A stretch of DNA of 64,000 nucleotides, from NCBI GenBank assembly GCA_964017195.1, contig OZ024898.1, forward strand, positions 16,320,975 to 16,384,974, read 5' to 3'. The translations under genes were made by a program, and so were the position numbers. The notes under the pieces were generated by a model. It was not told where the DNA came from. It made no database searches and saw nothing but the letters and a program-made list of their open reading frames with translations. Of the stretch, positions 28,601 through 58,600 are shown piece by piece; the first letter of the stretch is position 1, and each line of letters begins with the position of its first letter. This DNA comes from Siderastrea radians (Eukaryota > Cnidaria > Anthozoa > Scleractinia > Rhizangiidae).

Positions 28601-31600
28601 TGCTGGAGGTGTAGTACTGGTTGTGCATCGTACTGGTGATGCAGTGGTAGTGCATCATCCTAGAGGTGCTTTGGTTAGTGCATCGTGCTGGAGGTGCAGT
28701 GAAAGTGCATTGTGCTGGAGGTGCAGTGGTTGTGCATCATGCTGAAGTTGCACTGGTGAATATCTAATTTCATTTAAAGAAAGCGATTTACTAAGACGGG
28801 CCTGTAGGGCACCATCATTTTGTTCTGCAAAATTTTGGTCATAGTAGGTTGTTCAATGTCACAATGATTGATTGATTGCTTAATGATAGTACAAATGTAG
28901 TCACACAAATATATGAGTAACACAATTCTTTAAAACTTGTGCCATTAACTACTGTATTGCAAAACATTGAAAATGCAAGGGTTTGCTATTACTTTTTCAA
29001 TAGGTATTTTTTTGCAATTTCCAAAACAGAGTGCACAAAATGTACATGTATATTAATTTCCTAATACAATAATTAGTTTAAAAAAATTTTATTAAGACTT
29101 CATGCAGTTCACTAACCTACAACTAGTGTCTGACTTTGTTGGGACACTGTCCGTATGATAGAATCTCCCTCCCTTTCCCACTAGGCAATGTTATATTAAT
29201 GTTTCAACCAAATGGATGAAGACAGGCACTCGCAGCCCAATGCAACATTTAATATGGGTGAGAGGGGAGGGTGTTCCAATGATTTCTGTATCTTTGAAAT
29301 AACAATGAAATTGCCTGACATTTGTAAAAGTCTCTCAAAATCAACTCGTGTTAAAGCCTATTTTGCCAACTCTATCCCAACACATAATTATGTCTGTTCT
29401 TCATGCACTGGTTTCCTCTTTGAATGGCAGGCACATAAAAATATACTCCAAAGTTATAGTTCCCAAACAATGATAATTTTAGCTTCCCGAAGGTTGTTAC
29501 ATCACATGTGCTTCCAGAACACTCAGGTTTTTTGGTACAAATGCACTTGAACAAAGTGCTCACAACACTTAATGCAACATTGAATAATTTGGGGTGGGAG
29601 GGGAGGATGTTCCACCGACTTCTGTCACTGATTGTAGCTTGTAAGGGCCCATCTTTGACAAACCACAAGTTTTCTTGTTGACCCTGCGTGGCAAGTTACA
29701 TCTAGTTTGGTGTGATTGTAATTTTGATTGAGATAAGCTCCAAAACTAACTGTTGTGCTATTTTTTTTTATTTTCTGTCCAGTACATCACCAATGAGGGC
29801 ACGCTGTTTACTTTTAAGACCAACCTAAATGCTTCAAGATACAAGCTGATCAATATTGACCTTTCAAAACCTGAAATGGTGAGTTGTGTTATTTTCATCA
29901 CAAGCGTACTTTTATCAGACCTCTGGAAAAAGCATTTACATGTATTATGTACCTAAACAATTCAGTCCCCATTTTTAACCGATGAAGTCAGATTGTGTAG
30001 GGAGGGAGAGTGGAAAAGATGACAGGCAGGTAGGGCAGGTTGGTTCTCAGAGTAGGCCTGGTACAAGTGTTGGCCTTGGCAAAATTAAGTTGTGTAAACT
30101 TCATAACGTGTCCAAGGGGGCTCAGGCCGATGGGATCTAATGCTAAGCGCTGGAAAGAATGTGTCAGAATCGGGAAGATGTGGATCTCCCATTTCTACCC
30201 CAGAGCTCTTCTAGGTTTTGTCCTGCATGGCCAAAAAACAGTGACCGAAGACACTAGATCGGGAGTTGAGAATGGCTGAGGTCAGTGACAAGGAACTAAC
30301 TGAGAGAGGATTCAGTAGAAGCGAAATGAACGGGTTCAGCTGGATCTTCTTGGATAGTATAAGTGGCGTAGAAGGATATGCCAGTTGGTCTTTTTAATTT
30401 CTCTGCTTTACTTTTGATTTTCAACTGATTTGCATGATTTTAGAGTTCTAGACAACTTGCTGACTTTTACAGGGAGTCCCGGAAGAGCAAACCGATTTAA
30501 CGATTGTCATAAAACATGCTTTAATGTGTTTGAAATTGATGGAGCGATGGCCTCACTTTTTATTAATCTCTTCAGATTCTGACATGTTTGTCTTTATCGA
30601 TAATCATGTTTTTTTTATAGTGCTATATTCACAACAGTACATAAAACCATCGTTCACAGCTCTCAGTAAAAGCATATTCAGCTGTGAACAAGTTTACATC
30701 GACATCTAAGTTTTTAGTTAATTCAATGAAATTCAATATTCTGAAAGCGATAAGACAGATGAGCTGAGTCATCAGATTTTAAACATTACGTCATTCAGTA
30801 ATGCATAAGGCAAAATACTGTGAGTCACAACTTTCGTCATGCCGGTTAGCACGTTGAGCCAAGTAAATAAAATATTTATCGAGAGTGGAGTGGGTCAAAA
30901 CCACTGTTAAATGCCTATAATGCACCTTCTCTTAACCTGTATGACAGAGTTGAAAGTACATTTAAGAGGGCCTATAGTTTCGGAACGAAGCCTTTGTTTC
31001 GTGAAATATGCAACTGATCACAAAGCAATAATTTATTTTGCATTTCCATTCACAAGATTGCTCAAAGGAGCTGTTGACATGATTAAAGGGAACTAGCTGT
31101 ACTGTGCGCAAAGTATGGTGACCAAATGACAGTGAAAAATGATCTTGAGTGAAGAATGAGGTTGTGAGCATAGTCTGCAGAACTATGTTTGGTGAGGAGA
31201 GGGTGAATAATTCAGTTGGCCTCCTTTCCAGGGTATTGGTCACCTTTTCAGTTGGTCAAAATTCAGCGTTGGTTGCTGTAATTCTATAAGTCTAAGGGAA
31301 GACTTTCTTCACAACTGCCACACCAGCACAGAAGCCAGACGGCATGGTGATGCAGCCCTCAGGACTACTTAACAGGAGTCAGATTGTTTCCGGACTGTCA
31401 GATTGTTTCCGGACTCGATTTCCTACACTTATTAAACAAATTGCCCGTCTTTTCTACTTAATAAGCAGGTTCGACACGTCAAATTTGCTTGTTAATCAAA
31501 AAGAACGCTACTTTCGTGTTATTAAGCAAAAAAGGTAACACTTTTTGCTTATTAACACGTACCTTTTGCTTAATAGCCAGAACATTCCTGCCTATTAAGC

Positions 31601-34600
31601 AAATTAAGGTATATGTTTGCGTTATTAACCAAAAGTGTCGGCAGACTTTGCAAACAGAAGTTTTGTCGGCTTGAGCCGCCATTACGGAAAAAAATGTCGA
31701 GGGCGATAACTACTTAACAGGACAGCTTTATGAGAAAATACCTATCTAGCCGAAGTCAAGTGCGGGATTTCTTTCAATTTACCGGGAAAAAATCATAACT
31801 TTTATTTCAGCGGCCGAAATTTTTCAAAAGTAAGACTTCGCAGCGCGATCGATCGAGCGATCTGGCGAAGCCGTGAGATCTTTCACGTACACGATTTCTG
31901 TAAACAGAGACAAGGAAACTCATAACACTTCAACAGAGGAAATAATCCCAGACAGTCCAGATAAATGGAATATGCATAGAATATTCAGAGCTGTTAAAAC
32001 CTGGAATACAATAAAGAGAGATTTTAATTCGCTTTTTTTAAATACTTCTTTCGACATAGTCAGCTAATACCACACAGTGAAGCCAACAATACAGCACAGC
32101 GCGGGAATTAATATTGATCAATCGATTCTTCTACGTTCCCGATTTCTGTAAAGAAAAGTCAGAGCACAACAAACGAAATGCTGCTAAAAATAAAACATCC
32201 AGGCACCTCTAAACCTTAAGTTTGACAACAACGAAAAGAACAAAAAAAGATTTAATTATGACTTGTTTCTAAATTTTTCCGCGGAGAACGGCTGAACTGA
32301 AAAGACCATCAAAACACAACGAAATGAGCTACACCGAGCGGGGCATTATCAACTGATTGGATTCACGGTTAAAAGACTTAAAATTCTTTCGCCTAGCTTT
32401 TGAAAAACACTTGCCTACACAACAGTAGAACAGTTTAACCTTCTAGAATTAAAATCTCCTTTCTTAGCGCCGAACTAAATAAATTTTTGTTCGAGGTTTT
32501 TGTTCCAAGAGTTCGACTCTAATTTGTCTGACAACAACTCATTCGGTAAAAGAAATACGTCGGAGTTCCGTAAGACAACTCGCAAGGGAATAACATATGA
32601 CCCCAACGCGAAACATGTGATTTATTGAGCACAAATTGACCAAGAATCACTGTTTTTACGAAATCATCTTTACATAGTTACGTGGTACGATTAAAAGCTA
32701 AGTTTGCCGGCAATTACCTTCGCGAAAGTGTCAACACAAATGAGACTCGGAGCGGCAAATCGTCCAACTTTCAGTTTATTAATCAAGAAAGTACCACACT
32801 CGATAGATAAGTATGGAATTTCCTACCTAAAATAATGGCCTGAAAGTAGTTGTTTCGACTGTTAACCGATCAATCAATTCTTTGCGAGTGAAATTGTGAA
32901 CTGTTTTATACGGAACGCGGCGGCACTTTCCTTCAACCGATTCACTCACCGGTCAAAATACCTGATTCTAACTTTATTGGCATGAATTTTACAAAGAACA
33001 CTTTCTAAGAGAAAATTAAAACCAGGAGCCCCTGGTAAAACAGATTTACTGTTTCAAAAGACTCCTACCTTCACAGTGGAATTTTTTTCATTGAAGAATC
33101 AAATTTCTGAATCAAGATCAATAACAACACATTCTGGTAATAAAAATACGCCGATTTCCGTCTAGTTCCCATACGAAAACTCGAACGGCCTAAAGGTATA
33201 ACCTCATAGCAAAAAAATTTTTTTTATTGTGCACAATTTGCCTACGAAACGATTATTTTTACGAAATAATTTTGGAGTCGGCGGACAAACTTTGTGAACT
33301 GTCAACATGAGATGAGATATGAGCAGCGGATCTTCCGACTTTAGCACGGTTATTTTTCTTTCTTTTTTTTGCAGAAAAATACAACTCCCAGTTGAAAAGT
33401 AGAATAGTCTGAGGATTTTGGGAAGGTCTCTTTTTTCAATTGGAATGGTTTAAATTGAAAGAGAGATTTGTGTCATCTTAAAGTTCTGCAGTATTCGCTG
33501 CCCTAGTCGAGCAAAACAAAATACAACACAGCGTTTCTTGTTCAAGCTTGATGCGACCGGTAATTCAAATACGTTAAACAGTACTCTCGGTTAACTCATC
33601 CAACAGAGGCCATTTATCTAGAGTATATGTTTTGCTAGATGTACTTAGAGGTCCGAGCTGTGTACCCAGAACGAGTCATTCTGACAGACTAAACAGAGAA
33701 AGCTCTTTCAGGTGTCCCTGCCTTGACATGCAAATTTTTAATTTAGTTTTAGCGCGAAATTTGTTTTTCGCGGGAAAATAAATTTGATGGGTAATGAATG
33801 GCTTCTTACTATAGGCCTGTTTATTACAATTGTGTACAGGCTATAAAGTACCATCAGGTTAATTATTAACCCTCTGCGTAAATAGAAATGAGCTCACCTT
33901 CGCAAATTTGACGAAATCGTTTCCCTGGCCCGTCAGGCGTTACAACACAACCTCAAGGTTATTTATCTCACACACATTTAAAGTCTCCAAGTTGTTTTGA
34001 CGCTCTTGTATTCCATATTTTGATCTTTAAATGCCGTTAAGTGAATTTCTTCGTGACTCGCTGCTCGTAGGAGAAAAATGTTTGTGAACTCTGAATTTGT
34101 CGGGTTGGCGATTCAGTTTATAGAGCAGTCCACGTGCAAAGCAAACTGTCTTTCATTTTGAGGATGAGCAAAAGTCGTGTTCCTTGTATAGATGGCCATT
34201 CTTGATCCCATTCAACAGCCACCAGAAACCTTCTGTAAAAATGTCTGTTTGAAGTTAAAACATTCTGATCCACTCGCTGTCTGACACTAGAACGCGATAT
34301 TCACTGAATGTGTAGAACGCACAGAACACGCTTGTGTGGAGAGCTGGCCGATGGTACTTTGACAGTTTTCCCCACCCTCCCCACCCCTGCAGGAACGCAC
34401 GGGATTCAGTTTTGCATGGAAACGCAGGTCGATTCCCTGAAGCTACAACTGTTTGGTGCACATCTAATTCAGACAAAAATGTAACTTATCTTGCGCTTGA
34501 ATCAAACAGATGAAACACTTAATGCGAGTGATGACAGCGCTTTTCAGGTGATAAAGCGACGATCTCAGCGGCCGTCGCAGACTGAGAGATGAGCTCGCGA

Positions 34601-37600
34601 TGACGCTTTGGTCTTTATTTAACCAAAGTGACCACTGCTAGAGACTTAAGGCACTTGTGTTTATTAAACCAAATCGCCACCAAAATATTTTATGAATTAT
34701 ATTTTATGAATATTTTATTTATAAAGATTTTTGTTTGATATAGCAACCAAAGTGACCACTTGCAGAGATTTGGTGCACCGTTTTTTCAATCAAACAAAAG
34801 TGACCAATTAAGCAGAAATATGGACACTTATGTTTATTAAACAAAAGTGACCACTGAAACAGACATAAGTAGACATAAGTATGGACACTTGTGTTTATTA
34901 AAAAAACCTGACCAATGAAACAGCCGAATGGACACTTGTGTTTATTATACAAAAGTAACCACTGAATATGGACACTTGTGTTTATCAAACAAAAGTGACC
35001 AATAAAACAGACATACTGACACTTGTGCTTAATAAACAAAAGTGACCAGTAAAACAGACCTATGGACACTTGTGCTTATTAAACAAAAGTGACCAATAAA
35101 CCAGACATACGGACACTTGTGCTTATTAAACAAAAGTGACCAATGAAACAGACATACGGACACTTGTGCTTACTAAACAAAAGTGTCCAATGAAACAGAC
35201 ATACAGACACTTGTGTTTATTAAACAAAAGTGACCAATGAAATAGGCATACGGACACTTATGCTTATTAAACAAAAGTTTCCAATGAAAGAGACATAATA
35301 TATATGGACACTTGTGTTTATTATACGAAAGTGTCCCATGAAACAGACACTTGTGTTTATTAAACAAAAGTGTCCAATGAAACAGACAGACACTTGTGCT
35401 TATAAAACAAAAGTTTCCAATGAAACAGACATGTGGACACTTGTGCTTATTAAACAAGTGTCCAATGAAAGATACCTACGGACACTTGTGCTTATTAAAC
35501 AAAAGTTCCCAATGAAACTGACATAATGGACACTTGTGTTTATTATACGAAAGTGTCCCATGAAACATGCTTATAAAACAAAAGTTTCCAATGAAACAGA
35601 CATATGGACACTTGGGCTTATTAAATAAGTGTCCAATGAAACATACATACGGACACTTGTGCTTATTAAACAAAAGTTCCCAATGAAACTGACATATGAA
35701 CACTTGTGTTTATTATACAAAAGTGACCAATGAAACAGACATATGGACACTTGTGTTTATTAAACAAAAGGGACCAATGGAACAGACATAAGGACACTTG
35801 TGCTTATTAAACAAAAGTGACCAATAAACCAGACATACGGACACTTGTGCTTATTAAACCAAAGTGACCAATAAAACAGACATATGGACACTTGTGCTTA
35901 TTATACAAAAGTATCCAATGAAACAGACATACGGACACTTGTGCTCATTAAACAAAAGTGTCCAATGAAACAGACAGACACTTCTGCTTATTAAACAAAA
36001 GTGACCAATGAAACAGACATACGGACACGTGCTTATTAAACAAAAGTGACCAGTAAAACATGAGACATACGGACACTTGTGCTTATTAAACAAAAGTGGC
36101 CATTGAAACAGACATATGGACACTGGTGCTTATTATACAAAAGTGACCAATGAAACAGACATATGGACACTTGGGTTTATTAAACAAAAGTGACCAATGA
36201 AACAGACATATGGACACTTGTGCTTATTAAACAAAAGTGACCATTGAAACAGACATATGGACACTTGTGCTTATTATACAAAACTGACCAGTAAAGCAGA
36301 CATATGGACACTTGTGTTTTTTAAACAAAAGTGACCAATGAAACAGATATATGGACACTTCTGTTTACTAAACAAAAGTGACCAATGGAACAGACATAAG
36401 GACACTTGTGCTTATTAAACAAAAGTGTCCAATGAAACAGACATATGGACACTTGTGTTTATTAAACAAAAGGGACCAATGGAACAGACATAAGGACACT
36501 TGTGCTTATTAAACAAAAGTGACCAATAAACCAGACATACGGACACTTGTGCTTATTAAACCAAAGTGACCAATAAAACAGACATATGGACACTTGTGCT
36601 TATTATACAAAAGTATCCAATGAAACAGACATACGGACACTTGTGCTCATTAAACAAAAGTGACCAATGAAACAGACATACGGACACGTGCTTATTAAAC
36701 AAAAGTGACCAGTAAAACAGACATACGGACACTTGTGCTTATTAAACAAAAGTGGCCATTGAAACAGACATATGGACACTGGTGCTTATTATACAGAGCC
36801 GAGAGGAAAAAGTACTACAAGCATGGCAGGAAAGCGAAAGCCCAGCCAGAGAAATATCTTTCGCTGACCGCCGATGGGATGGATCAAGCCAAACACAACC
36901 TGCCGCATTTTACGACAACCACGAAGGTTAGTGAAATTATAAAATGTACTTTCGAAAACATAGAGGGACAACTGCAAGAACTTTTTTAAAATTTAGAGAC
37001 ACATCATTGTAACATTAGGCCACTTAGTCCGTTTATCTCTACTTATCGATGCAACATTATTCATTGTAATGAAGATGTACACGAAAACACCGTCCCGCCT
37101 GTGTTCACTAAATGTTAATTTGAACATGAACATGGCTTATAGTCGCACGCTCTGAATAACAATAGATGAACAATAACTAGAGGTTACTAGAACATCGAGA
37201 GTTCAGCGTTACCATTTATGAAGCATCAAATGAATGAAATTGCGCTTGGTATATGCAAGGGTTGACTTGAAGTCTTTTATGTTCATCTTAAGATTGATGA
37301 TCATGCATGGAAATTAAAGACGCACGTAACGGGTGTCCTGGCAAACAACCACACCAAAGCGGGGGCCTACATTGACTGCTGTCAATATCCCCATGACAGC
37401 AATCTGACCATCAACATTATTTTGCACACTCTGCTATGGATACAGACAACGGTAAGCAAAGAAAGAAAATGGTTACGTATACCACATGTGCGTTTCTTTC
37501 CAACGAGATATTTCATAATATGCTAATTTGGAGTGCTGGTAACGTGATTAGCAGCCACTAACACAGTATAAGTAAGTTCAAGAAAGGCGAGAGATGCATC

Positions 37601-40600
37601 AGTTGCTACTTTGTTTTTTGAGGAGTAACTTACAAGAGCTCATCCTGCCGTTCAATATTATCTTTATAAACTTAGTCTGTTTCAGCGTCAAAGCAGCACT
37701 GCGCACCAGTCTTTTCAGTTGGCTTTTTTTACTGAAAAATAAGCAACCGTGTGTACAATTCCATTTCTTCCTTTTTTTCTTTGTCTAACAAGCAAGAGTG
37801 CAGGAAAGCGATCTATTTTAGTTCGCGTCAAAACAAGATCGCGAGTATGTCAGTTTCAGTTATGACTATTGATTAAGAACCAACATTGGGCTTAAGTCTA
37901 TTTCAGTTGCATTTTGTTTACAGACCAACATTGCGCGGAAGTCTATTTAAGTAACGACTTTTGTTAATGAACAAGAATGCGCTCAAGTCAATTTCAGTCA
38001 ATTCCCTTTTTATAAGCAATATTGCGCGCGTCTGTGAAACTGGTGATGTTTGGCCAGTAATAAACTCACTTGAAGAAATTCCATTTCAGTGCTTTTTCAT
38101 GAGTATTAAATGTTCAATCATTTCTTTATACAGTTGGGCCAACTACCACCTACGCTGTACCTACAGATGGATAATTGTTGGCGAGAAAACAAAAACCGTT
38201 ATGTGCTGTGTTTTCTCGCCTTACTAGTAGAGTTAGGTATTTTCAAGAAGGTGAATAACTTTGTGATTCTAACTGTAATATTAATGCAACGTTTGAAAAT
38301 TTTTGTCGCTCAAAATGCCTTATGCTTCTTCAAAACTTATCCCCTCACTTTTGTAACCTCTAAACAGAGAATCATCCAGAGCAACTCAACAATTCCTGTA
38401 ATAATCCTTGCATATTGAATAACTTAAGTCTGTTGAATCATCAAAACAGGAAATAGAAAATTGACGCGGTGCGACATTTCGATGGTTCCACCATCATTTT
38501 CAAGCAGTGAGTGCGTACTTAAGCAAGACACTCAGTGCTTGAAAACGATAGTAGAACAATCGAAAAGTCGCACCGCATTATCTCCTACACAGTATGGGAA
38601 ATTCGGGGAAAAGAATTGGTTCATGCATTAAGCTGTGTGTTCATCGAGTCGTGCATGCGCTGCACTTGGGAAGTCTGTAGAGCACTCAAGAAGCTAGAGT
38701 TTTTCGAGGTGCGTACGCTTCTCACGTGCTCTCCAAACCTCTCCTGTGCTTCCATAAATCAATGGACGCACGCTAAGCATGAACCAATTCAGTCTTACTG
38801 GCCAATAACCTGCTGCTATCTCCAATTAAACACTTTTGTCGAAACTCTGGGACACTATTTTCCTTTCGTTGAGGATCCAAGTTACTTTCTAAAATTTTGT
38901 GTATATCATATACAAAATTACTGCTACTACTACTACTACCACTACTACGACTACTACTAATGATATTTATTTATTTACTGGCAGATAAAGGTGTGCTTTT
39001 TGATGACTGGCCACACGCACGAGGACATCGATCAGATGTTCTCGTGTATTTCCAGACGCCTCCGAAAGAACAACGCCCGGACCCTTCTCGAGCTCATCAG
39101 AGAGATTGGAATGAGCTACTCTCCAGCCATAGTGGCATCGCTGATTACGTTTATGTATGACGTGAAGGAATGGCTGGAGGGGTGTGCCATTTCAAATCTC
39201 TCTGGACATATCCACCAGCATCAATTTAAGCTCGTGAGGGGTCCGGACGGGAAAGCACGATTGTTTTACAAGAAGTGGTCGACCACTCCCACCTGGTCAC
39301 CTCCGGAAGGCATCGCTCTTCTTCAGAAGACACCCAGTGGAAAACCTAACCTCGTGGTGCCCGATGTGGCAAAGTTGAATATTCCTAAGCTAAAGCAGGA
39401 TATTCCAAGATACAGCCTCCATTTCGACCCTCCCACCACTAAGTGGTGGGAGGACTTTATTAAAAATGGAGGCCCTGTACAAAGTGAGAATCCGCAGTGG
39501 GTGCTGCCATCCCTTCGCCGTCAGCCAGAAAATAATGCAGAGGAAATCTCCGCCGTCACCAGTGATATTCAGGATACCCTCCTCAAACTGGTTGAAAGAG
39601 AGGAACGGGAGGTGGAGGTAATAGCATTAATTTGTGGTGAAAATGGAATTGATTGCACAGTATGGCTCATCGTGGTGCACACTTAAAGACAGTCATTTTG
39701 ATAATTTTTAAAATTTTTTATTGTAAAAATTTCCGTGTCTTGAATTAATGACGGGCGTATGTATACAAAGAACAGACCCGTTATTGGCTATAGAAAGGTT
39801 ACTTTGGACATGTGACACCTCCTTACTTTTCCCACACAATACTAGTGAAATACCAAACAAGACAAAGGGAACAAATGATTTAGGGAGTATTACGCAAAAA
39901 CTATTTTACGAGTGAAGTAATATCCTTTTAGTCTCAATGTAAAAGGCTTTTTAAATATTACCACAGTTTTTAGTCAATCATAATTACTTTCAAGGACATT
40001 ATTTTTTTGTCGAATGAAACCTGACTCAATACTTCCACTGGTTACTCTAACTTGTTATTCTTGCTATTCAAGGTTACAGTTGGACGCAAAAGAAAGGGGA
40101 CCACAAAGCAAGGAAACAACAAAAGAGTCAAAAAATGGTGATTTTTTTTAACTACGCAATGTTTAGACTTGAGTTGTTTTTTTTCAAGTTGTTTTACTCT
40201 ATTAAGGACGTTCGTGCTAATTGTTTCTGCGGTTCCTTACCGCGCACACAATTCACGTCGCCATGTCATGCATTGAGCGCGCACGCTGAATAAGAAATGA
40301 AGAGATATATAGCGCTAGTGGGCATTTTAACATCTATGCACGAATTTAACTCTCTTAAATGTTCGGTGATCCCAGATTTTCTTTTGATAAATCATTTTCT
40401 TTATCGATTATCTACGTTTTATGAAAAATTGAACAAAATCTGTGTTGTGGAAATTTGATTTTTTTTCCAATTTTTCTTCCCACGCATCATCGAATTCCGC
40501 TATTACTTTAGCTGTACGGTGTTGGCAAAAGTCCATTTCAAAGGTTGAGTTTAACTGAAAGGATGACACTGGTTCAAATTATTTGCTTGACAGACCCACT

Positions 40601-43600
40601 TGAATGAAATTCGGCGAATTATTTTTAATATTTTTCAACTAACAACCACTGCGGTGATGTCGAGTTACGAGGGCCGATTTGTCAAAATTGGAGTAGTTTT
40701 CCACGTGCTTTATTTGACAAAGCCGGTGACACCCCAATTTTTTTGCATTTCTGACATAGGTAACTGATTATCTTACTGTGGCAAAAGTATGAAAAATCTG
40801 AGTTGTAGAAGATTCTCGCGCGAACGTCCTTAAAAACCAACAAAAAAACACACTTTATGACCAGGATCAAAGCATTGGTTGTCGATGTTTACTCTACTTC
40901 CTACTTGAATTTACTTCAACACTAAATGTTTTCTGAATAATGAATGTATAAATATCATATATTAGAACTGCGGGATGAATAATTAAATGTAAAGAAGAAC
41001 AACGCAGTTATAGACGCAACTTCTGCAGTTGGGAAAAGAGAGCCTGAAAGAACTTCAGGCTCGTACGGGATTCGAATCCACCAGCTCTCAGTTGGCTTGT
41101 TAGCTCAATTGGTTAGAGTGCTGCACAGGTGTCGCAGAGTTCAAGGCTTCGATCCCGTAAAAGCCTGAATTTTTTCCGGCTTTCTTTTCGCAACTACAAA
41201 AGTTGCGTCTATAACTGCGATGATCTTCTTTACATTTATTAATTGTTTTCTGTTTCTTTCTCTTCGCTTGCAGAGGAAGAATGCTGGCTGCACTGTTGTT
41301 GGAAGACGTCCTCTCCAAGAAAAAAAAGGTTCTTTTTAGAGCCACTTGTTTTACAGTGAGAAAAAAACAAAAACAAAAACAAAATAGACAAAACGAACAA
41401 AAACAAAACCAAAAAAAAAACATAAAACAAAACAAAACAAAAACGGCTCTTTTAGGAGCCACCACATAATACAAAGGTGAATGACCAACAAATATGAATT
41501 TAACATTTAATTTTCCAGTGAAGAGTACTATATTATGCTTCCCATTTAAAACATTTAGTTTTAACCATTACGTTTTTTGTTAACTATAGTTAATAATTGA
41601 AAATTGCGCGTTAGGCATATCGCTTGACGACTACGAGCAAAGTAATGTACACATGTAAGGGTGATTAAGTTTTTCATTAATGTCGACTTCGGACTAATCA
41701 ACGAATGTGCACTAAATGAAAAAACGAATAAGTACATATTTAGTACTTATAATCTGCGAACTACACGTACTATAACATACATTTTAACAACCAATGGCTA
41801 AGAAGTGCTTCACTGTCATACTGAGCAATCTAAGTTGTAAAACGTATCTATGATAACTCAAAAATATATTTAAGGCCACCAAAAAGTCTGGGAAGACCGT
41901 ATTTTCGGCAGCAATACCTTAAAACGCCACAACTTTGTATCTAAACGTACCTAGCGTGTTCCTATGTGCTGTTTTGCAAAGAAGAGGCTACTGCCTCATA
42001 TAAAAATTTATTGTATTCTCGCATTTCATTACAAATAATGGACAAGTGAATGAAGGAAGGAAGGAAGGAAGGAATTGCCCATATAAGGACAATATTTGCG
42101 TGCTGTCTGTCTGCCTATATCAGCTCCTGTATAAAACTTCCTGCTGTGACTACTGCACTTCAACCTCTCATGACTCTTTACGCCTTTCACCCTTTCTCTG
42201 TCTCCTAGTGGGTAAACAGAAATAGCATATTACAGATAAAAAGGTTACAACGAAAAGTTCACTAACTAACTCAACACAACATATCGTCCTCTCAATAACA
42301 TTTCTTAAGTGGCTTTTGATAAATGACGAAAGTCCACGTAATTCTTTTTCAGGGCTGAGTAAATTTAATTAACACAAATGTCCTAAGCCTGTTTCAGACC
42401 GGAGTATCGTTTGTAGGATTCATATACTGATATTTTTTTTAATCAAACTGCTTTGTCCTTTTCTATCGCCTTCTTTGTCGTCTAGCTACACGATAGCAGT
42501 AACGTTTGCTAGAAAGCCCTATAAGCGTATTCAAGCATCCAAAAAAATGCTAAAAAATCAGTTTTAAACTGAGTTTGCTGCTTTTTTTGTCGTAGTTTTT
42601 TCGGCAAAAACTTCTCAACAAGCAAGTGTAGAGTCATAAAAAATAAATGCATTATTTAGGTTTTCTTGCAGAAAACTGAGCAGTGTTGGAAGGGTGGGGA
42701 GGCAGGGGAATTTTCCCAAACACAATTTATCAACGGTCCACATAGCCGTGTTCTGTGGCCTACACATTTAGGAAATATATCGCCTTCACGGATAAGATAG
42801 TATGTGTATCAGAATGCTTCAACTTCAAACACAAGTATACCCATTAGTCTGTTGACGAGGTGACTTTCTGGTGTCCATCTGTCTGTTTCATTGGACACTT
42901 TTGTTTAATAAACACAAGTGTCCGTATCTCTGTTTTATTGAACACTTTTGTTTAATAAACACAAGTGTCCATCGGTCTGTTTCATCGGACACTTTTGTTT
43001 AATAAGCACAAGTGTCCATATGTCTGTTTCATTGGACACTTTTGTTTAATATGCACAAGTGTCCATATGTCTGTTTCATTGGAAACTTTTGCATAATACA
43101 CACAAGTGTCCGCTGTCTGTTTCATTGGTCACTTTTGTATAATAAACACAAGTGTCCATATGTCAGTTTCATTGGACACTTGTTTCATAAGCACAAGTGT
43201 CTGTATCTCTGTTTTATTGGACACTTTTGTTTAATAAACACAAGTGTCCATTGCTCTGTTTCATTGGACACTTTTGTTTAATAAACACAAGTGTCCATAT
43301 GTCTGTTTCATTGGACACTTTTGTTTAATAAGCACAAGTGTCCATACGTCTGTTTCATTGGTCACTTTTGAATAATAAACACAAGTGTCCGTTTGTCTGT
43401 TTCATTGGCCACTTTTGTTTAATAAGCACAAGTGTCCGTATGTCTGTTTTACTGGTCACTTTTGTTTAATAAGCACAAGTGTCCGTATGTCTGTTTCATT
43501 GGTCACTTTTGTTTAATAAGCACAAGCGTCTGTACGTCTGTTTCATTGGTCACTTTTGTATAATAAACACAAGTGTCCGTATGTCTGTTTCATTGGCCAC

Positions 43601-46600
43601 TTTTGTGTAATAAGCAAAAGTGTCCATATGTCTGTTTTACTGGTCACCTTTGTTTAATAAGCACAAGTGTCGATATGTCTGTTTCATTGGTCACTTTTGT
43701 TTAATAAACACAAGTGACCATATGTCTGTTTCATTGGACACTTTTGTTTAATAAACACAAGTGTCCATATGTCTGTTTCATTAGACACTTTTGTTTAATA
43801 AACACAAGTGTCCATATGTCTGTTTCATTGGTCACTTTTGTATAATAAAAACAAGTGTCCATACGTCTGTTTCATTGGACACTTTTGTTTAATAAACACA
43901 AGTGTCCATATGTCTGTGTCATTGGTCACTTTTGTATAATAAGCACAAGTGTCGATACGTCTGTTTCATTGGACACTTTTGTTTAATAAGCACAAGTGTC
44001 TGTCTGTTTCATTGGCCACTTTTGTTTAATAAGCACAAGTGTCCGTATGTCTGTTTTACTGGTCACTTTTGTTTAATAAGCACAAGTGTCCGTATGTCTG
44101 TTTCATTGGTCACTTGTTTAATAAGCACAAGTTTCCATCTGTCTGTTTCATTGGTCACTTTTGTATAACAAACACAAGTGTCCATATGTCTGTTTCATTC
44201 GCACTTTTGTTTAATAAGCACAAGTGTCCAAATGTCTGTTTTACTGGTCACTTTTGTTTAATAAGCACAAGTGTCGATATGTCTGTCTTATTGGTCACTT
44301 TTGTTTAATAAACACAAGTGTCCATATGTCTGTTTCATAGGACACTTTTGTTTAATAAACACAAGTGTCCATATGTCTGTTTCATTGGGAACTTTTGCAC
44401 AATACACACAAGTGTCCACTGTCTGTTTCATTGGTCACTTTTGTATAATAAACTCAAGTGTCCATATGTCAGTTTCATTGGACACTTTTGTTTAATAAGC
44501 ACGAGTGTCCGTTTTATTGGACACTTTTGTTTAATAAACACAAGTGTCCATCGGTCTGTTTCATTGGACACTTTTGTTTAATAAGCACAAGTGTCGATAT
44601 GTCTGTTTCATTGGCACTTTTGTTTAATAAGCACAAGTGTCGATATGTCTGTTTCATTGGTCACTTTTGTTTAATAAACACAAGTGTCCATATGTTTGTT
44701 TCATTGGACACTTTTGTTTAATAAACACAAGTGTCGATATGTCTGTTTCATTGGTCACTTTTGCTTAATAAACACAAGTGTCCATATGTCTGTTTCATTG
44801 GACACTTTTGTTTAATAAGCACAAGTGTCTGTCTGTTTCATTGGCCACTTTTGTTTAATAAGCACAAGTGTCCGTATGTCTGTTTTACTGGACACTTTTG
44901 TTTAATAAACACAAGTGTCCATATGTCTGTTTCATTGGTCACTTTTGTATAATAAACACAAGTGTCCCTATGTCTGTTTCATTGGACACTTCTGTTTAAT
45001 AAGCACAAGTGTCTGTATGTCTGTTTTATTGGACACTTTTGTATAATAAGCACAAGTGTCCATATGTCTGTTTCATTGGGAACTTTTGCACAATACACAC
45101 AAGTGTCCACTGTCTGTTTCATTGGTCACTTTTGTATAATAAACTCAAGTGTCCATATGTCAGTTTCATTGGACACTTTTGTTTAATAAGCACGAGTGTC
45201 CGTATCTCTGTTTTATTGGACACTTTTGTTTAATAAACACAAGTGTCCATCGGTCTGTTTCATTGGACACTTTTGTTTAATAAGCACAAGTGTCGATATG
45301 TCTGTTTCATTGGCACTTTTGTTTAATAAGCACAAGTGTCGATATGTCTGTTTCATTGGTCACTTTTGTTTAATAAACACAAGTGTCCATATGTTTGTTT
45401 CATTGGACACTTTTGTTTAATAAACACAAGTGTCGATATGTCTGTTTCATTGGTCACTTTTGCTTAATAAACACAAGTGTCCATATGTCTGTTTCATTGG
45501 ACACTTTTGTTTAATAAGCACAAGTGTCTGTCTGTTTCATTGGCCACTTTTGTTTAATAAGCACAAGTGTCCGTATGTCTGTTTTACTGGACACTTTTGT
45601 TTAATAAACACAAGTGTCCATATGTCTGTTTCATCGGTCACTTTTGTATAATAAACACAAGTGTCCCTATGTCTGTTTCATTGGACACTTTTGTTTAATA
45701 AGCATAAGTGTCTGTATGTCTGTTTTATTGGACACTTTTGTATAATAAGCACAAGTGTCCATATGTCTGTTTTATTGGTCACTTTTGTTTAATAAGCACA
45801 AGTGTCCGTATGTCTGTTTCATTAGTCACTTTTGTTTAATAAGCACAAGTGTCCGTATGTCTGTTTTATCAGTCAGGTTTGTTTAGTAAACACAAGTGTC
45901 CATATGTCTGCTTAATTGGTCACTTTTGTTTGATTTAAAAAACGGTATACGAAGTCTCTTCGAGTCGTCACTTTGGTTGCTATATCAAACAAAAATGTCT
46001 AGAAATAAACTTTATTCATTCATAAAATATTCTGGTGGCGATTTGGTTTTTAATTAATAAATACAAGCCGCCCCAAGTCTCTACTAGTGGTCACTTTGGT
46101 TAAATAAAGACGAAAGCGTCATCGCGAGCCCATCTCTCGATCTATGATGGCCGTTGAGATCGTCGGAAACCTTGATAAAAAGCAGTTTAAGCTTTATCAC
46201 CTGAAAAGCGCTGTCATCACTCGCATTAAGTGTTTCATCTGTTTGATTCAAGCGCAAGATAAATTACATTTTTGTCTGAATTAGATGTGCACCAAACAGT
46301 TGTAGCTTCAGGGAATCAACCTGCGTTTCCATGCAAACTGAATCCCGTGCGTTCCTGCAGGGGTGGGGAGGGTGGGGAAAACTGTCAAAGTACCATCGGC
46401 CAGCTCTCCACAGAAGCGTGTAGTGTGCGTTCTACACATTCAGTGAATATCGCGTTCTGGTGTCAGACAGCGAGTGGATCAGAATGTTTTAACTTCAAAC
46501 AGACATTTTTACAGCAGGTTTCTGTTGGCTGTTGAATGGGATCAAGAATGGCCATCTATACAAGGAATACGACTTCTGCTCATCTTCAGAAGGAAAGACA

Positions 46601-49600
46601 GTTTGCTTTGCACGTGGACTGCTCTATGAACTAAATCGCCAACCCGACAAATTCAGAGTTCACAAACATTTTTCTCCTACGGGAAGCGAATCACGAAGAA
46701 ATTCAATTAACGGCAGTTAAAGATCAAAATATGGAATACAAGAGCGTCAAAACAACTTGGAGACTTTAAATGTGTGTGAGATAAATAACCTTGAGGTTGT
46801 GTTGTAACGCCTGACGGGCCAGGGAAACGATTTCGTCAAATTTGCGAAGGTGAGCTCATTTCTATTTACGCAGAGGGTTAATAATTAACCTGATGGTACT
46901 TTATAGCCTGTACACAATTGTAATAAACAGGCCTATAGTAAGAAGCCATTCATTACCCATCAAATTTATTTTCCCGCGAAAAACAAATTTCGCGCTAAAA
47001 CTAAATTAAAAATTTGCATGTCAAGGCAGGGACACCTGAAAGAGCTTTCTCTGTTTAGTCTGTCAGAATGACTCGTTCTGGGTACACAGCTCGGACCTCT
47101 AAGTACATCTAGCAAAAAATATACTCTAGATAAATGGGCTCTGTTGGGTGAGTTAACCGAGAGTACTGTTTAACGTATTTGAATTACCGGTCGCATCAAG
47201 CTTGAACAAGAAACGCTGTGTTGTGTTTTGTTTTGCTCGACTAGGGCAGCGAATACTGCAGAACTTTAAGATGACACAAATCTCTCTTTCAATTTAAACC
47301 ATTCCAATTGAAAAAAGAGACCTTCCCAAATCCTCAGACTATTCTATTTTTCAACTGGGAATCGTCTTTTTCTGCGAAAAAAGAAAAATACCCCTGCTAA
47401 AGTCGGAGGATTCGCCGCTCATATCTCATCTCATGTTGACAGTTCGCAAAGTTTGTCCGGCGACTCCAAAATGATTTCGTAAAAATAATGTTTCGTAGGT
47501 AATTTGTGCACAATAAATAAAATGTTTTGCTATGAAGTTATACCTTTTGCCCGTCTGAGTTTTCGTATGGGAACTAGACGGAAATCGACGTATTTTCATT
47601 ACCTGAATGTGTTGTTGTTGATCTTGATTCAGAGATTTATAATTCTTCAGTGAAAAAAAATTCCACCGTGAAGGTAGCAGCTAGGAGACTTTTGAAACAG
47701 TAAATCTGTTTTACCAGGGGCTCCTGGTTTTAATTTTCTCTTAGAAAGTATCCTTTCTAAATTTCATGCCAATAAAATTAATAGAATCAGGTATTTTGAC
47801 CGGTGAGTGAATCGGTTGTACATTTGCCGGAAGGAAAGTGCCCGCCGCGTTCAGTGAAAGAACATGATTCAAGCTTCAATGCACTCGTATAAAACAGTTC
47901 ACAATTTCACTCGCAAAGAATTGATGGATCGGCTAACAGTCGAAGCAACTACTTTCAGGCCATTATTTTAGGTAGAAAATTCCATACTTATCTTTCGAGT
48001 GCAGTACTTTCTTGATTAATAAGCTGAAAGTTGGACCATTTGCCGCTCCGAGTCTCATATCGTGTTGACACTTTCGCGAAGTTAATTGCCGGCGAACTTT
48101 TATTTAGACTGAAGCTTATAATCGTACCACGTATGTAAAGATGATTTCATAAAAACAATGATTCGTGGTAAATTTGTGCTCAATAAATCCCATGTTTCGC
48201 GGTGGGGTTCTATTTTATCCCCTTGCGAATTTTGATACGGAACTCCAACGTATTTCTTTTACCGAATGTGCTGTTGTCAGAAAAATTAGAGTCGAACTCT
48301 TGGAACAAAAACCTCGAACAGAAATTAGTCCCGCGCTTAGAAAGGAGATTTGAATTCTAGAAGGTTAAACTGTTCTACTGTTGTGTAGGCAAGTGTTTTT
48401 CAAAAGCTAGGCGAAAGAATTCTTTTAACCGTGAATCCAATCAGTTGATAATGCCCCGCTCGGTGTAGTTCATTTCGTCGTGTTTTGATGGCAGGTGTTT
48501 TCAGTTCAGCCGTTCTTCGCGGCAAAATTTAGAAACAAGTCATAAAATCCTTTTTTGTTGTTTTCGTTGTTGTCAAACTTAAGGTGTAGAGGTGCCTGGA
48601 TGTTTTAGTTTTTGCAGCATTTGGTTTGTTGTGCTCTGACTTTTCTGACTAATAAGCTGAAAATAAAGCTGACGGATTTGCCGCTCTGTTTTGACAGTTT
48701 CGCAAAGTTTAACCGCGTATGTAGAAATGATTTCGTAAAACAATGTTTCGTGGTCAATAAATAAAATGTTTCGCTGTGGGATTATATTTTTATCTCCCCC
48801 CGAGTTTTCGTCCGGAAATCCGACGTATTCCCGTTTTCACATTACCTGGAAATTAAATGTGTTGTTATCGAATCAAATTAGACTGGCGAATTCTTGGTAC
48901 AAAACTCTTGAACGAAAATTAGTTCCGCCGCTAAGAAAGAAGCTTTTCTAGATGGAAGGTCAAACTGTTCTACTTTTCTATTAGGGAAGTGTTTTTTTAG
49001 AGCGAGGGGAAAGAATTGTGAATCTTTAAACTGTGAATCGATTGATAATGCCCCGCTCGCTCGGTGTTGTACATTTCGCCGTGTTTTGATTAAATTTGGC
49101 GCTTCTCGGAAGAATTTAGAAATAAGTCATGAGATCTTTTTGTTGTTTGTTGTTAAATTTAGTTTTAGAAGTGTCTGGATGTTTAATTCAGTTTTCGCAG
49201 CATTTCATCTGTTAATTCATTGCTCTGACTTTTGTTTACAGAAATCGTGAACGTGGAAGAATCGCTAAGTTCATAATAAAGAACATAATTGACGTGCTGT
49301 ACTGTGTTGTTCGTTTCGCTGTGTCAGTTATTTTTATTCTCTTTGTCGAAAGAAACAACAAACCGCGAATTAAAATTTCCTCTTTATTGTATTTCAGGTT
49401 TAGACAGCTCTGAATATTCTCTGTACATTCCCGTTATCTGGATTATTTCCTCTGTTAAAGTGTTGAGTTTCGTTGTCTCTGTTTACAGAAATCGCGTACG
49501 TGAAAGATCTCACGGCTTCGCCAGATCGCTCGATCGATCGCGCTGCGAAGTCTTACTTTTGAAAACTTTCGGCCACTAAAGTAAAAGTTATGATTTTTTC

Positions 49601-52600
49601 CTGGTAAATTGAAAGAATTCCCGCACTTGCCTTCGGCTAGATAGGTATTTTCTCATAAAACTGTTCTGTTAAGTAGTTACCGCCCTCGATATTTTTTCCC
49701 GTAATGGCGGCTCAAGCCGACAAAACTTCTGTTTGCAAAGTCTGTCGACACTTTTGCTTAATAACCGAAACATATACCTTTACTTGCTTAATAGGCAGGA
49801 ATTTTCTGGCTATTAAGCAAAAGGTGCGTGTTAATAAGCAAAAAGTGCTACCTTTTTGGCTTAATAACACAAAAGTAGCGTCCTTTTTGATTAACAAGCA
49901 AATTTGACGTGTCAAACCTGCTTATTAAGGAGAAAAGACGGGCAATTTGTTTAATAAGCGTAGGAAATCGAGTCCGGAAACAATCTGACAGTCCGGAAAC
50001 AATCTGACTCCTGTTACTTGTTCTTTTCATTGGATGTACAGTTACGCACTTTTGCTGCAACTTGCTGTTACAGACGCTTGAATGTTATCGAACGTGCAGT
50101 CACGCATGCCTCACTTGCTTTGTTTTCGAGGCAAACCAGCACTTTGTCGGTTCTGCACACATTGCGGGGCTATGTTTTGGTCTTCCCAGACCAGGGAGAT
50201 GGGAGCTGATTCTGCCTCCCCTCCATAACTTAAAGATGTCACAATGAAACTTTGTGGCAGTATGTTCACAGTGTTTCTTTGACGTCCACAGAATTAGATG
50301 ATGCTGTCATGATTCAAAACAGTTGCCATCTTGGATTCTCCATGATGGATTTCTCCTTTCAACTTAAGAAAACAGTCAAAATAAACTCAAACCTATTAAG
50401 TGATTAGAATGGTCTAGGCCTTTGGGGGCGTATGTTTATCCACTACGCTTTTATTTGGAGGTTGTAGGGTACCCTAGAAAGAGTTTGTTAGTTGATCAAA
50501 ATTACATGCATGAGTTGAAATGGTGAACAGATGAACAGACAATAAATGGTTGTATGCAGCAATTTCAAGAGGGTTTTGGACAATATATGGATCATAATAT
50601 GCCGTTAAAAAACTGAAAACAAATGGGAAAGCTTTGAAGTCTGGACTGGAAATTGGAAGAAACAAAAATGCTGAAATCTACACTGGGTTAATTTTTTAAT
50701 CAAAACATTTAGTGGTTAAAACAAACTTAATAGACTTGATCAAAATGCACAAGATTTGTTTCTCAAGAGAAACCTTTTACCCCAGGTATTTAGTTGGAGA
50801 TCAACTTTTTGCAGTTAGTCAGGGAAATGTGCAAGTATTGCAACTTTATAAAATGTATATCTGTTATTACTGTACGTTATTGCAAAACACTGGCTTAGAA
50901 TTTTTATTTTGGCAATATGTATTTTTTTGCAATTTCCAAACCAGATCTTGCAAAATTTATTCATAAGTCCTCACAGAAAAAGTATTTTTAAAATGTTAAG
51001 AATTCATTATCTATCCTGAACCTAGGTGCCCACAACTGTATTAACTCCAGCTTGTAAGGGTCTGTCTTTGATACAATGGATACCACGGGTTTCCTTCTTA
51101 AAATTAATGTTAAAATGGTAAATAAATACGAAATAAAAATGTAGAAGTTCACTATAACACAAACGAGAAAAGCCCCAGGGGCATTAGGGTTAGCATTACG
51201 GCCACTCAAGATACAAGCCCTAGCCTGTGTAGTGAAAGACACAACAAGTATTCGTTTGGCCGAGCGAAAACCGGAGGTCTGTGGCAAGTGACCACCAAAA
51301 AAAAACAAGAAAAGCTCCAGGGGCATTAACCCCGCCGTTGTTCTCTCTGCCCTTGGGGTCCAAAATATATTACGGCTACGTATGACACAAGCCTAAGGGG
51401 TGTAAATTTTAAAAGTTGGTGATATTTCGTGTTTATTTACGTGTTTGCAATGATAATATAAATCAAGAAATGACCTGCCTAATCACCCTGTTTTAGCGTG
51501 CGTGACGAAGAGCGTGATGAAATATTTTGATCATAGTGTGACTCAGCCTGGCCTCGTAGCTCACGCTCTTCGTCACGCATGCTAAAACAGGGTGATTAGG
51601 CAGGTCATTTCTTGATTTATATTTTCATTGCAAACACGTAAAAAATACGATAAATCACCAACTTTTAAAATTTACACCACTTCGGCTTGTATTTTACGTG
51701 GCTTTTTCCCGCCGTCAGGACGGGGTCTAGTAATACCCGTTTTCTTTTTTTTTGTTTTTTTTTGGGGGGGTGGTCACTTGCCCCAGACCTCTGCTCGGTC
51801 AAAACAATACTTGGCGGTAATTTTCGTTCGTTTAGCGTTTATTCGCCAGAATTTTCATGAAAGTTGATGTAGAAAATTACTGGCGATTTAATGGCATAAA
51901 AACCCCTTCGATGAAAGCAGGAACGTGGGTGCTAGCGAGCTTTGAAGCTGGCATGAATTCGCCTAACTTGCCCTGGCACGTAAACATTACATCACTGAAA
52001 CACAGAAGCCGATTCGGGGAAGTCCCTTGCTTTTGCCAAGTTGAATAATTCAAGAGTGAAATGCAAGCATTTTTTTGGCAGTTTTGCTGTGCTTCGCCAA
52101 AATTTTTAGGGAAAGTTGTGTAGAAAAGTACAAGAAATTCAATGGAGTTGACTTGTCTTCAACGAGAGCGAGCTTTGAAAGCCAATGATTCATGCTACGT
52201 GCCGTAGCATATAAACATTACGTCATTCAAACACAGAAGCCGATTCGGGGAAGTAACTTGCTTGCGCCAATTCACTCATCGAATGACTGCCTAAAATATA
52301 TTTTTACATTTTTTAGCCAATGACGTCACGTTAGTGACGTCATATGGCTACTGTCAGAGCCTAAAAATCAACGATAGACATTGGAACGATAGACGTTGTA
52401 CGTACGTGCGATGTACGTCTGTCTTACGATTTGTGAGGCTGGGGGGATATTCTGTGAGACGATGGGTGGGGGTGTGCACCGGGACACTGAAAGTGTTAGC
52501 TTATCAGCGGCACAAACCCATACAGCTAATGTTATGGGAGTAAGACCCCCGGGCTTTGAAGTGTTTTGCATTCGCAAGTGTGGATCTACTTCGAATGCCT

Positions 52601-55600: not shown

Positions 55601-58600
55601 AGAACAACGGCGGGGTCTAATGCCCCTGGGGCTTTTCTTGTTTTTTTTTGGTTCGTTTTTGTCATTATTTTTTTGGGTGGTCACTTGCCCCAGATCTCCG
55701 ATTTTCGCTCGTCCAAACAAATACTCGTTGTGTCTTTTGCTACACAGGCGAGGGCTTGTATCTTTAAGTGACTGTAACATATTTTACACCCCAAGGGGAG
55801 AGACAACAATGGCGGGGTCTAATGCCCCTGGGGCTTTTTACCCCGCCATGAGGACGGGGTCTAGTAATACCCGTTTTTTTTGGGGGGGGGGGGGTCACTT
55901 GCCCCAGACTTCCCTCGGCCAAACAAATATGCGTTGCAAACTTTCGGTCAACATAAGCAATGTCTCCAGTCGCTAAAGCATTTATCGAATCATGGCCTAA
56001 AAGTAGACCTTTACGTTTCATTTTTCAGTAGATAACCGTTCCCTTTCAATTTAAGGATAATTTTTCTTCATCAGTAAATCTATTTAAATTTCTGTGCCCT
56101 TGTTTAACATCTAGAATTACGCTGAGATGTCATTTCCTTAAAAAATTGACGTAACTAAGTCACGCCATGGTCAAAACTATTTCGTCACGTTCTTCTTCGC
56201 GAGTGCTAGAACAGGTGGATGACCAAGGAATGAGGGAAGGGAAAGGTATTAATACTATAAGGGATCCATGATATCACAAGGAGAAGGGTGCAGAGAAGAC
56301 GTTGGGGGGGGGGATGGCAGCACACACGTCAAACGTTAGAAAAATCACCAACTTCAAAACTTTATACCACTTGGGCACATATCTTGAGTGACCGTAATGT
56401 ATTTGCACCCCGAGGGGGGGGGGGGGGAACGGCGGGGTCCAATGCCCCTGGGGCTTGTTTCAATATAATTACCCCACCGTCAGGACGGGGTCTAGTAATA
56501 TCCGGTTTTTTTTTTGGTTTTTTTTTTGTCGTGGTCAGTTGCCCTAGACCTCCGCTCGGTCAAAACAATACTTGCCGGTAAACTTTGTACGTTTAGCGTT
56601 TATTCGCCAGAATTTTCAGAAAGTTGGTGTAGAAAATTACCTGCGATTTAATGGCAGGAAAATTCCTTCGATGAAAGCAAGAACGAAGGTGCTAGCGAGC
56701 TTTGAAGCTGGCATGAATTTGCCAAACCTGCCCTGGCACGTAAACATTGCATCACTGAAACACAAAAGGTGATCCGGGGAAGTCCCTTGCTTTCGCCAAG
56801 TTGAAAAATTCAACAGTGAAATGCAAGCATATTTTTGGCAAATCTTTAGGGAAAGTTGTGTAGAAAAGTACAAGAAATTCAATTGAGTTGACTTCTCTTC
56901 AATGAGAGCCAGGACCAAGGTGCTAGCGAGCTTTGAAAGCCAATGATTCATGCTATGTGCCGTAGCACATAAACATTACGTCATTGAAACACAGAAGCCG
57001 ATTCGGAGAAGTAAACTTGCTTGCGCCAAATCACTCATTGAATCACGGCCTAAAATAGACTTTTACGGTTTTTCATAGCTACCAGTTTCCTTTAGATTTT
57101 AGAATGAGTTTTTTTTATCAAGAAATCTATTTAAATTTCCGTGCCCTTGCTATTTAGAATTATGCTGACATGTCAGTTCGTTTATATAAAAAAACGTGGC
57201 TTAACTAAGTCACGCTATGGTCAAAATATTTCGTCGCGTTCTTCTTCGCAAAAGCTAGGACAAGTGGATGACCAAGGAATGAGGGATGGGGTTCATACTA
57301 TCAGGGATTCATGTTACCACAGGGAGAAGGGTGCGGAGCAGACGCATAAGGGGAAATGGCAGCAAACACAGGTACGATAAATCATCAACTTTAAAATTTA
57401 CACCACTTGAGCTCGTATCTTGAGTGACCGTAATATATTTTGCTCCCTGGGAGGAGGAGAAAAACGGCGGGGTCCAATGAAAGGAGGAACGAAGGTGCTA
57501 GCAAGCTTTGAAGCTGGAATGAATTCGCCTAACTTGCCGTGGCACGTAAACATTACATCACTGAAACACAGAAGCCGATTCGGGGAAGTCCCTTGCTTTC
57601 GCCAAGTTGAATAATTCAACAGTCAAATGCAAGCATTTTTTTGGCAGTTTTGCTTTGCTTCGCCAAAATCTTTAGGGAAAGTTGTGTAGAAAAGTACAAG
57701 GAATTCAATGGAATTAACATTTCTTCGACGAGAACAAGGACGAATGTACTAGGGAGCTTAAGTTTGAAAGCTGGCATGAACTCCCGATCGCTATGAACTT
57801 AGTAATTATGATGTAAAGTATGTATGTATGAGTGCCAAGAAGTGAGTAATACTGCCCTCCATAATTTCCCCCCGACCACAGGCCTTAAAAGTAAGAAATT
57901 AGAAATGAGAACCAAGATAAAAGGAAAATCTTTGACCCCGGCGGGATTCGAACCAACGACCTCCGGATTAGAACACCGTCGCTCAACCAACTGAGCTACG
58001 AGGCCAGGCTGAGTCACGCAGTTATCAAAATAATAATTTCATCACGCTCCTCGTCACGCACACTAAAACAGAGTGATTAGGCAAGTCGTCTCTTGATTTA
58101 TATTATCATCGCAAGCACGTAAAAGATACGATAAATCACCAACTTTTACCTGGCCGTAATATATTTTGGACCCCAAGGGCAGAAAGAACAACGGCGGGGT
58201 TAATGCCCCCTGGGGCTTTTCTTGTTTTTTTACCCCGCCGTCAGGACGGGGTCTAGTAATACCCTTTTTTTTTCCGTGGTTTTTTTTATTTTTTTGGTGG
58301 TCACTTGCCCCAGACCTCCGTTTTCGCTCGGCCAAACAAATACTCGTCGTGTCTTTCGCTACACAGCCAAGGGCTTTTATCTTGAGTGACCGTAACATAT
58401 TTTACACCCCCCGGGGGGGGGGGGGGGGGAGAACAACGGCGGGGTCTAATGCCCCTGGGGCTTTTCTTGTTTTTTGGTGGTCACTTGCCCCAGACCTTCG
58501 CTCGGTCAAAACAATACTTGCCAGTAATTTTCGTACATTTAGAGTTTATTCGCCAGAATTTTCATGATAGTTGGTGTAGAAAATTACTGGCGATTTAATA

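Follow-up and report, generated by a model that had tools for sequence, protein, structure and literature searches.

According to the account in PMC10741241, DNA transposons of Sola, which PMC5753468 names as a superfamily, are mostly 2-9 kb long, with some exceeding 15 kb, and carry inverted repeats of 11-1124 bp. The repeats of Galileo, an element of the P superfamily, reuse end-proximal motifs that, as described in PMC3688188, hold binding sites for the THAP domain of the transposase. In the 2019 review PMC6431247, DNA transposons of 16-20 kb are called significantly enlarged, and transposition efficiency is stated to fall above 6 kb of cargo; much larger elements exist, and the 180-kb Teratorn is described in PMC10175614 as involving a piggyBac-like transposon. 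Here we describe a transposon from the coral Siderastrea radians, located in a stretch of 64,000 nucleotides of contig OZ024898.1 (hereafter, the window). We interpret the 18.6-kb insertion in the window, with a probability of roughly 0.9, as a non-autonomous derivative, shortened by an internal deletion, of a very large DNA transposon of the cut-and-paste kind that has foldback-type arms; in its complete form (42.5 kb, on contig C328 of the same genome), this transposon encodes a DDE/D RNase-H transposase with the DUF7869 domain and a divergently transcribed partner protein. The ends, the 4-bp duplications, the related empty sites, the additional copies, the deletion and the open reading frames of the C328 copy were all observed directly. 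An RNase-H-type fold predicted for a homologue and an intron-free database product of a near-identical partner gene add to these findings. The complete element breaks the usual expectation of size and exceeds the 16-20 kb range mentioned above.

In the window, AACAGGAGTC starts at position 31371, directly after one ACTT, and GACTCCTGTT ends at position 50015, directly before another (Table 1). In inverted orientation, the outermost 550 bp of the left arm are 94.7% identical to those of the right arm; further in, 32152-36795 aligns, inverted, with 43886-48646 at 87.4% identity (4,831 columns, 257 gaps), and one 996-nt block of the arms is 98% complementary. Each arm consists of an outer part and an inner 47-bp tandem array, and because these tandem repeats fill much of the inner arm, the alignment there is partly one of repeat against repeat. 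A first-pass annotation of the window, made from the sequence alone, had reported ACTT on both sides of these termini as well as arms of 5.4 and 7.1 kb that are reverse complements over kilobases, and was correct on both counts.

The assembly of the host (G000, 804.8 Mb; C-numbers denote its contigs) was the sole genome searched for copies of the element. The tip, 31371-31640, gave at least 46 match rows. Five of these are short self-inverted matches, another is a piece of a tip counted elsewhere, and two on C6 may stem from a single tip with an insertion in it, which leaves about 40 distinct places at least. Facing ends could be paired at 10 places, eight with close tips and two belonging to a subfamily of about 72% similarity. 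Identical 4-bp flanks were found at nine of these 10 copies, the exception being C119, with tip rows that lack a partner end left out of this count; the copies with matching duplications include ones on the multi-megabase contigs C3, C7, C10, C11 and C12. For three insertions (the window, C328 and C10), the flanks were joined with one copy of the 4-mer and searched for empty sites, and related unoccupied sites were found for all three, matching at 398 of 400 positions for C328 and in 393 of 400 columns for C10. The sites related to the window insertion matched in 326 of 358, 328 of 359 and 332 of 364 columns, two with ACTT and one with ATTT. All of these sites belong to further copies of the repeat into which the element inserted, rather than being alleles; the target in the window (31171-31370 plus 50020-50219) is a dispersed repeat with at least 40 matches of 87-91% identity that cover most of the 400 joined bases. 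The number of tips, the duplications and the related empty sites go far beyond what chance would produce. Of the checks that the first-pass annotation had proposed, many copies of the tip, with 4-bp duplications at nine of the 10 pairs, and an empty site with a single ACTT were found, the latter at repeat copies rather than alleles; its inference of a eukaryotic cut-and-paste DNA transposon is borne out by the duplications, the copies, the empty sites and the RNase-H-like DUF7869 transposase described below.

The C328 copy (325771-368244) is 42,474 bp long and is flanked by the duplication TCCA. Window positions 31371-36795 match it at 99.7%, after which extra C328 DNA follows; the match continues over window positions 36794-46753 at 99.97% (9,960 bp), and the last 3.26 kb are 99.4% identical, for a net loss of 23.8 kb in the window copy. 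As the two copies are 99.4-99.97% identical where aligned, their separation was recent. The C119 copy, of 50 kb, carries the same interior as C328, with about 1-7% divergence in the main common interior blocks, so that this interior is ancestral. The window copy, which lacks transposase exons 1-8 and the entire partner gene, is neither autonomous nor complete but internally deleted. Hence, the earlier view that this copy is autonomous or recently autonomous is not supported, and of the multi-exon DUF7869-like gene with RNase-H-like acidic motifs that had been noted, the domain and the motifs are real but the first eight exons are gone. The arms indeed make up two thirds of the window copy, a share that had been considered exceptional; however, this is a by-product of the 23.8-kb internal deletion, given that the 6.6- and 7.1-kb arms of C328 account for about a third of that element.

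Five more copies, of 7.6 to 13.4 kb, matched in the arms but not in the gene region (rows under 150 columns were dropped), so that the expectation of the same gene inside holds for the window, C328 and C119 copies and fails for these five. The outer arms of the gene-less copies are 96.3 to 99.9% identical, inverted, over the longer aligned stretches, the inner arrays less so; the arms of C328 differ from each other by 7-17% over the listed stretches, its tips being closer, at about 95%. Near-perfect multi-kilobase mirror arms may form hairpins and promote rearrangements. C25 may carry a third gene-bearing copy; a search of 4 kb there revealed no left end. One arm of the C119 copy is interrupted by a 6.8-kb stretch without a counterpart in its siblings (C119:375127-381916, L036), with open frames of 431 and 342 amino acids, which is probably another nested mobile element.

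Table 1. Coordinates of element features in the window
Feature	Position	Strand	Remark
Whole element copy, 18,645 bp	31371..50015	.	Internally deleted derivative of the 42.5-kb element
Left 4-bp target site duplication, ACTT	31367..31370	.	Single ACTT at two related empty sites, ATTT at the third
Right 4-bp target site duplication, ACTT	50016..50019	.	
Left inverted-repeat tip; opens with AACAGGAGTC, holds TTTTGCTTAATAA-type motifs mostly 20-30 bp apart	31371..31922	+	31370-31922 is 95% complementary to 49464-50016
Right inverted-repeat tip	49464..50015	-	
Left arm, 5.4 kb	31371..36793	+	
Right arm, 7.1 kb	42871..50015	-	
47-bp tandem repeats, left arm	34880..36795	+	
47-bp tandem repeats, right arm, about 66 copies	42871..45931	-	
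Deletion junction	36793..36796	.	Arm repeat abuts sequence no more than 3 bp before transposase exon 9; 2 bp (CA) common to both sides
Transposase exon 9, first conserved Asp (DGMDQ)	36797..36926	+	Converted from C328:355043-355172
Transposase exon 10, DUF7869 match starts	37293..37451	+	Start converted from C328:355539
Transposase exon 11, second conserved Asp (QMDNCWRENKN)	38134..38250	+	
Transposase exon 12, third acidic motif (GHTHEDIDQ)	38985..39617	+	
Transposase, predicted last exon	41274..41339	+	Splice sites and frame only, no homologue support

The transposase gene of C328 is predicted to comprise 13 exons that encode 696 amino acids. This predicted protein matches DUF7869 (PF25273) with an E-value of 1.2e-74 and a score of 250.6 bits against a cut-off of 26, and a Pfam scan to E 0.01 gave no domain besides it. 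In the window, the reading frames 38110-38418 and 38964-39686 match the same profile well over the curated cut-off (E-values 4.8e-31 and 1.6e-18), and a third exon matches it as well. In structural comparison, mariner transposases and retroviral integrases gave the best alignments to the AlphaFold model of a homologue, with weak Foldseek E-values; the predicted model has an RNase-H fold in which three acidic residues occupy the expected positions. Together with an alignment of 49 sequences, the model places three near-invariant Asp residues at strand and helix positions typical of a DDE core. The third of these acidic residues is Asp in 48 of the 49 sequences, and an alternative third acidic residue, at position 422, is Glu in 39 and Asp in 9. 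As modelled, the DUF7869 domain is part of a transposase of the DDE/RNase-H type. A widespread domain listed as unknown would thereby gain a likely function, since DUF7869, present in organisms ranging from corals to molluscs, echinoderms and liverworts, has the appearance of a cut-and-paste transposase. No paper containing the word DUF7869 was found in the open PMC literature, and a text search for four motifs of the protein gave, among the matches listed, unrelated word matches only. Comparison of the transposase exons of C328 and C119 revealed too little conservation to demonstrate selection. The last transposase intron contains, at window positions 40978-41244, a self-complementary sequence that matches sibling copies in both orientations and is likely a small nested inverted-repeat element.

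The second gene of C328 runs from 350537 down to about 335985, upstream of the transposase gene and divergent from it. Its product has an acidic repeat, a basic stretch, a conserved region and exons that, by eye, resemble a coiled coil, several of which are 33-bp repeats; no Pfam match was found for this protein. The only database match of the gene is a 341-amino acid JGI protein, P0225, whose match covers 61% of the search region at 100% identity. It derives from a 1,676-base contig, whereas the same exons span about 12 kb in C328. P0225 starts within intron 1 and is continuous across most of the predicted exon junctions, with one exon left out; it has 7 repeated exons versus nine matched in C328, and one residue differs in the last exon. 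From these features of the sequence, we take P0225 to represent a transcript, spliced in part, of a near-identical partner gene.

The conserved region of the partner protein gave 19 match rows at 13 loci in the host genome. At nine of these loci (C328, C119, C25, C222, C8:15.2 Mb, C7:25.7 Mb, C6:32.6 Mb and two at C6:34.6 Mb), a divergently oriented DUF7869 match lies within 25 kb; at the other four (C6:17.07, C6:25.84, C4:52.08 and C7:30.62 Mb), there was none among the matches listed (150 of 279 candidates scored). Because four of the nine pairs are diverged, with 45-52% partner identity, the arrangement is probably old. The recurrence of this gene raises the direct question of whether it is needed to move so large an element.

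With up to 3 mismatches allowed, nine TTTTGCTTAATAA-type motifs, two of them overlapping, occur in about 210 bp of the tip. Most of the 47-bp units in either arm contain the motif again, as does a third array of 47-bp repeats, located in intron 3 of the transposase gene (C328 351557-352219); the window outside the element contains 6 matches at up to 2 mismatches. By analogy with Galileo, these repeats are putative transposase binding sites. The transposase, perhaps with the partner protein, would bind the motifs in the tips and in the 47-bp arrays, pair both ends, excise the element and insert it with a 4-bp stagger. Loss of the interior with retention of the ends, for example through interrupted gap repair after excision, could have produced the window copy, which would then have been moved by transposase supplied in trans from a complete copy; the gene-less copies that retain only the arms would be the extreme of this series of interior losses. 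The window copy either moved after the deletion or was deleted during its own transposition, and both possibilities fit its separate duplication, ACTT as opposed to TCCA in C328.

Several other explanations were considered. Large inverted repeats are a typical assembly risk, and the C328 and C119 copies lie on contigs of only 0.6-0.7 Mb, with repetitive flanks in the case of C328, so that the arms might instead reflect a segmental inversion or faulty assembly and not be the ends of a transposon. However, nine places, multi-megabase contigs included, show the same ends flanked by matching 4-bp duplications, and related unoccupied sites exist for all three insertions tested; the duplications and the empty sites refute this explanation for the family, and we give it almost no weight. 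It is also highly improbable, if somewhat less so, that the DUF7869 gene is a host gene or a passenger and that another transposase moves the ends. DUF7869 is indeed widespread as an unnamed domain, and the five copies without a gene-region match must move, if at all, without DUF7869 in cis. Against this, the window, C328 and C119 copies all have the gene located between their ends, its homologue is predicted to adopt a fold of the DDE type, and no other transposase was found: of the 33 interior frames of at least 75 amino acids, which include parts of both genes, nine were scanned against Pfam in addition to the spliced transposase, and none matched above the curated cut-off. One of them gave three weak matches below the cut-off, to MxiC_C, DUF4969 and AgrD. 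A Polinton/Maverick or another virus-like element, considered on account of the 42-kb size, was rejected on the same result for the nine frames. In Teratorn, the piggyBac-like transposon is fused with a herpesvirus. A scan of the viral_contigs collection revealed no relative, and a search of the phage collection with the tip found nothing.

By mechanism, then, we regard the element as an ordinary DDE cut-and-paste transposon, and by anatomy as a foldback element, the latter being a structural class rather than a superfamily and represented here by long inverted arms with internal tandem repeats. Most likely, it belongs or is related to the Sola superfamily as a very large element with foldback arms, this superfamily being the best published fit found because of the 4-bp duplication and the conserved Asp triad. 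Sola1, Sola2 and Sola3 are described with 4-bp duplications and DDD-type transposases in animals and early land plants (PMC10741241, PMC3627910). We somewhat favor the simpler position that the element is an outsized member of this known superfamily and not otherwise new, a matter of classification that is compatible with the mechanism proposed above. The duplications at nine of 10 paired ends and the Asp in 48 of 49 sequences, which matches the "DDD-TPase" designation, speak for it, as do the occurrence of Sola in bacteria, metazoans and a moss, with 4-bp duplications and some elements above 15 kb, in the account of PMC10741241, the AT-rich 4-bp duplications given for Sola2 in PMC3627910, and the presence of DUF7869 in the liverwort Riccia. 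On the other hand, the assignment was made from published descriptions; position 422 (Glu in 39, Asp in 9 of 49) leaves the third catalytic residue uncertain; and the total of 42.5 kb and the arms of 6.6 and 7.1 kb lie beyond the reported ranges, the 11-1124 bp of PMC10741241 being a range and not a requirement of the family.

Other known systems share parts of this organization. Like Galileo, the element has long inverted repeats with internal tandem repeats, its 47-bp arm repeats reuse a motif of the tip, and it has gene-less derivatives made of two arms, as described for Galileo in PMC3573991. It differs in its 4-bp duplications, compared to the 7 bp of Galileo, and in its 6.6-7.1-kb arms, compared to up to about 1.26 kb in the Drosophila mojavensis element (PMC3573991 for both); moreover, unlike a P-type transposase with a THAP domain, the 696-amino acid protein yielded only DUF7869 in the Pfam scan. 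The FB and Tetris foldback elements, which are Mutator-related, also have arms with internal tandem repeats, but Tetris is reported in PMC4079207 with duplications of 8-10 bp and with no transposase-encoding copy found, in contrast to the 4 bp and the DUF7869 transposase here, and the Mutator superfamily at large is credited with 7-12 bp in PMC10741241. With the Mos1/mariner transposase, only the catalytic fold is alike, at 8-9% sequence identity, and mariner elements duplicate TA and, in plants, are mostly 1.5-6 kb long by the account of PMC10741241, compared to 4 bp and 42.5 kb here. It is conceivable, although rather unlikely, that DUF7869 marks out a DDD transposase superfamily of its own, distinct from Sola and the other catalogued groups, whose animal members would include a two-gene system in which a divergent coiled-coil partner and more than 100 repeated binding sites in multi-kilobase foldback arms are needed to join the ends of a 42-kb cut-and-paste element without a recognised viral gene in the scanned frames.

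Among the DUF7869 homologues, an additional similarity concerns Nipped-B-like protein, a cohesin loader; it involves the C-terminal part of these homologues, for example, residues ~610-687 of P0132. A profile of the 49 homologues matches the C-terminal end of this protein (PDB 6wge_E, E 7e-16), and a PDB search by sequence gave no transposase, its two significant rows both being Nipped-B-like protein. In the alignment, the match looks genuine for the C-terminal domain of some of the homologues. By a simple pattern, the motif P-x-I-G-x-V...V-x-W-x-x-G was detected near the C-terminus in at least 15 of the 49 homologues. A chromatin-type domain common to a transposase family and a cohesin loader would be of interest. 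The C-terminal profile gave nothing significant in six frames of the window core and of loci L032, L033, L034 and L037 (best E 1.3), and the coral element seems either to lack this type of domain or to have it in exons too short or elsewhere. A scan of the 49-homologue alignment for strongly charged C-terminal tails found none.

A prokaryotic origin was also considered and rejected. In the genome_contigs collection, 12 loci encode DUF7869 relatives, eight of them in one bin labelled Trichormus; the latter are presumably eukaryotic contamination and were not used as evidence. Four of the Trichormus-bin contigs (L069, L072, L074 and L075) carry DUF7869 frames of 873-898 amino acids and a divergent frame of 409-584 amino acids, partly cut by the end of the locus. 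This second gene showed no significant similarity to the coral partner gene; it contains a VIGGSHSAEARR stretch that, we presume, recalls ParB, its Pfam matches all being below the cut-off.

The host genome also contains a second DUF7869 family of about 9 kb, observed at C3:6046500-6056499 (L056) and C6:22660000-22669999 (L057), with an intronless frame of 334 amino acids and the motifs DNSPGQFK and GHSFSICDRRFG. Long blocks of the two copies are 97.5-99% identical and their short ends are similar; because they sit beside TA microsatellites, the length of the duplication cannot be read. In C10:8812736-8921232, DUF7869 frames of 312-334 amino acids have the same profile match, and five of them are spaced about 9.1 kb apart, as if a transposon had been tandemly duplicated.

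Elsewhere in the window, 8798-10105 and 13787-16489 contain frames of 435 and 900 amino acids that, by eye, look like non-long-terminal-repeat reverse transcriptases. Two tRNA genes or tRNA-like sequences, one of them called as Arg, lie about 1.1 kb apart on the same strand at 57932-58006 and 59041-59115.

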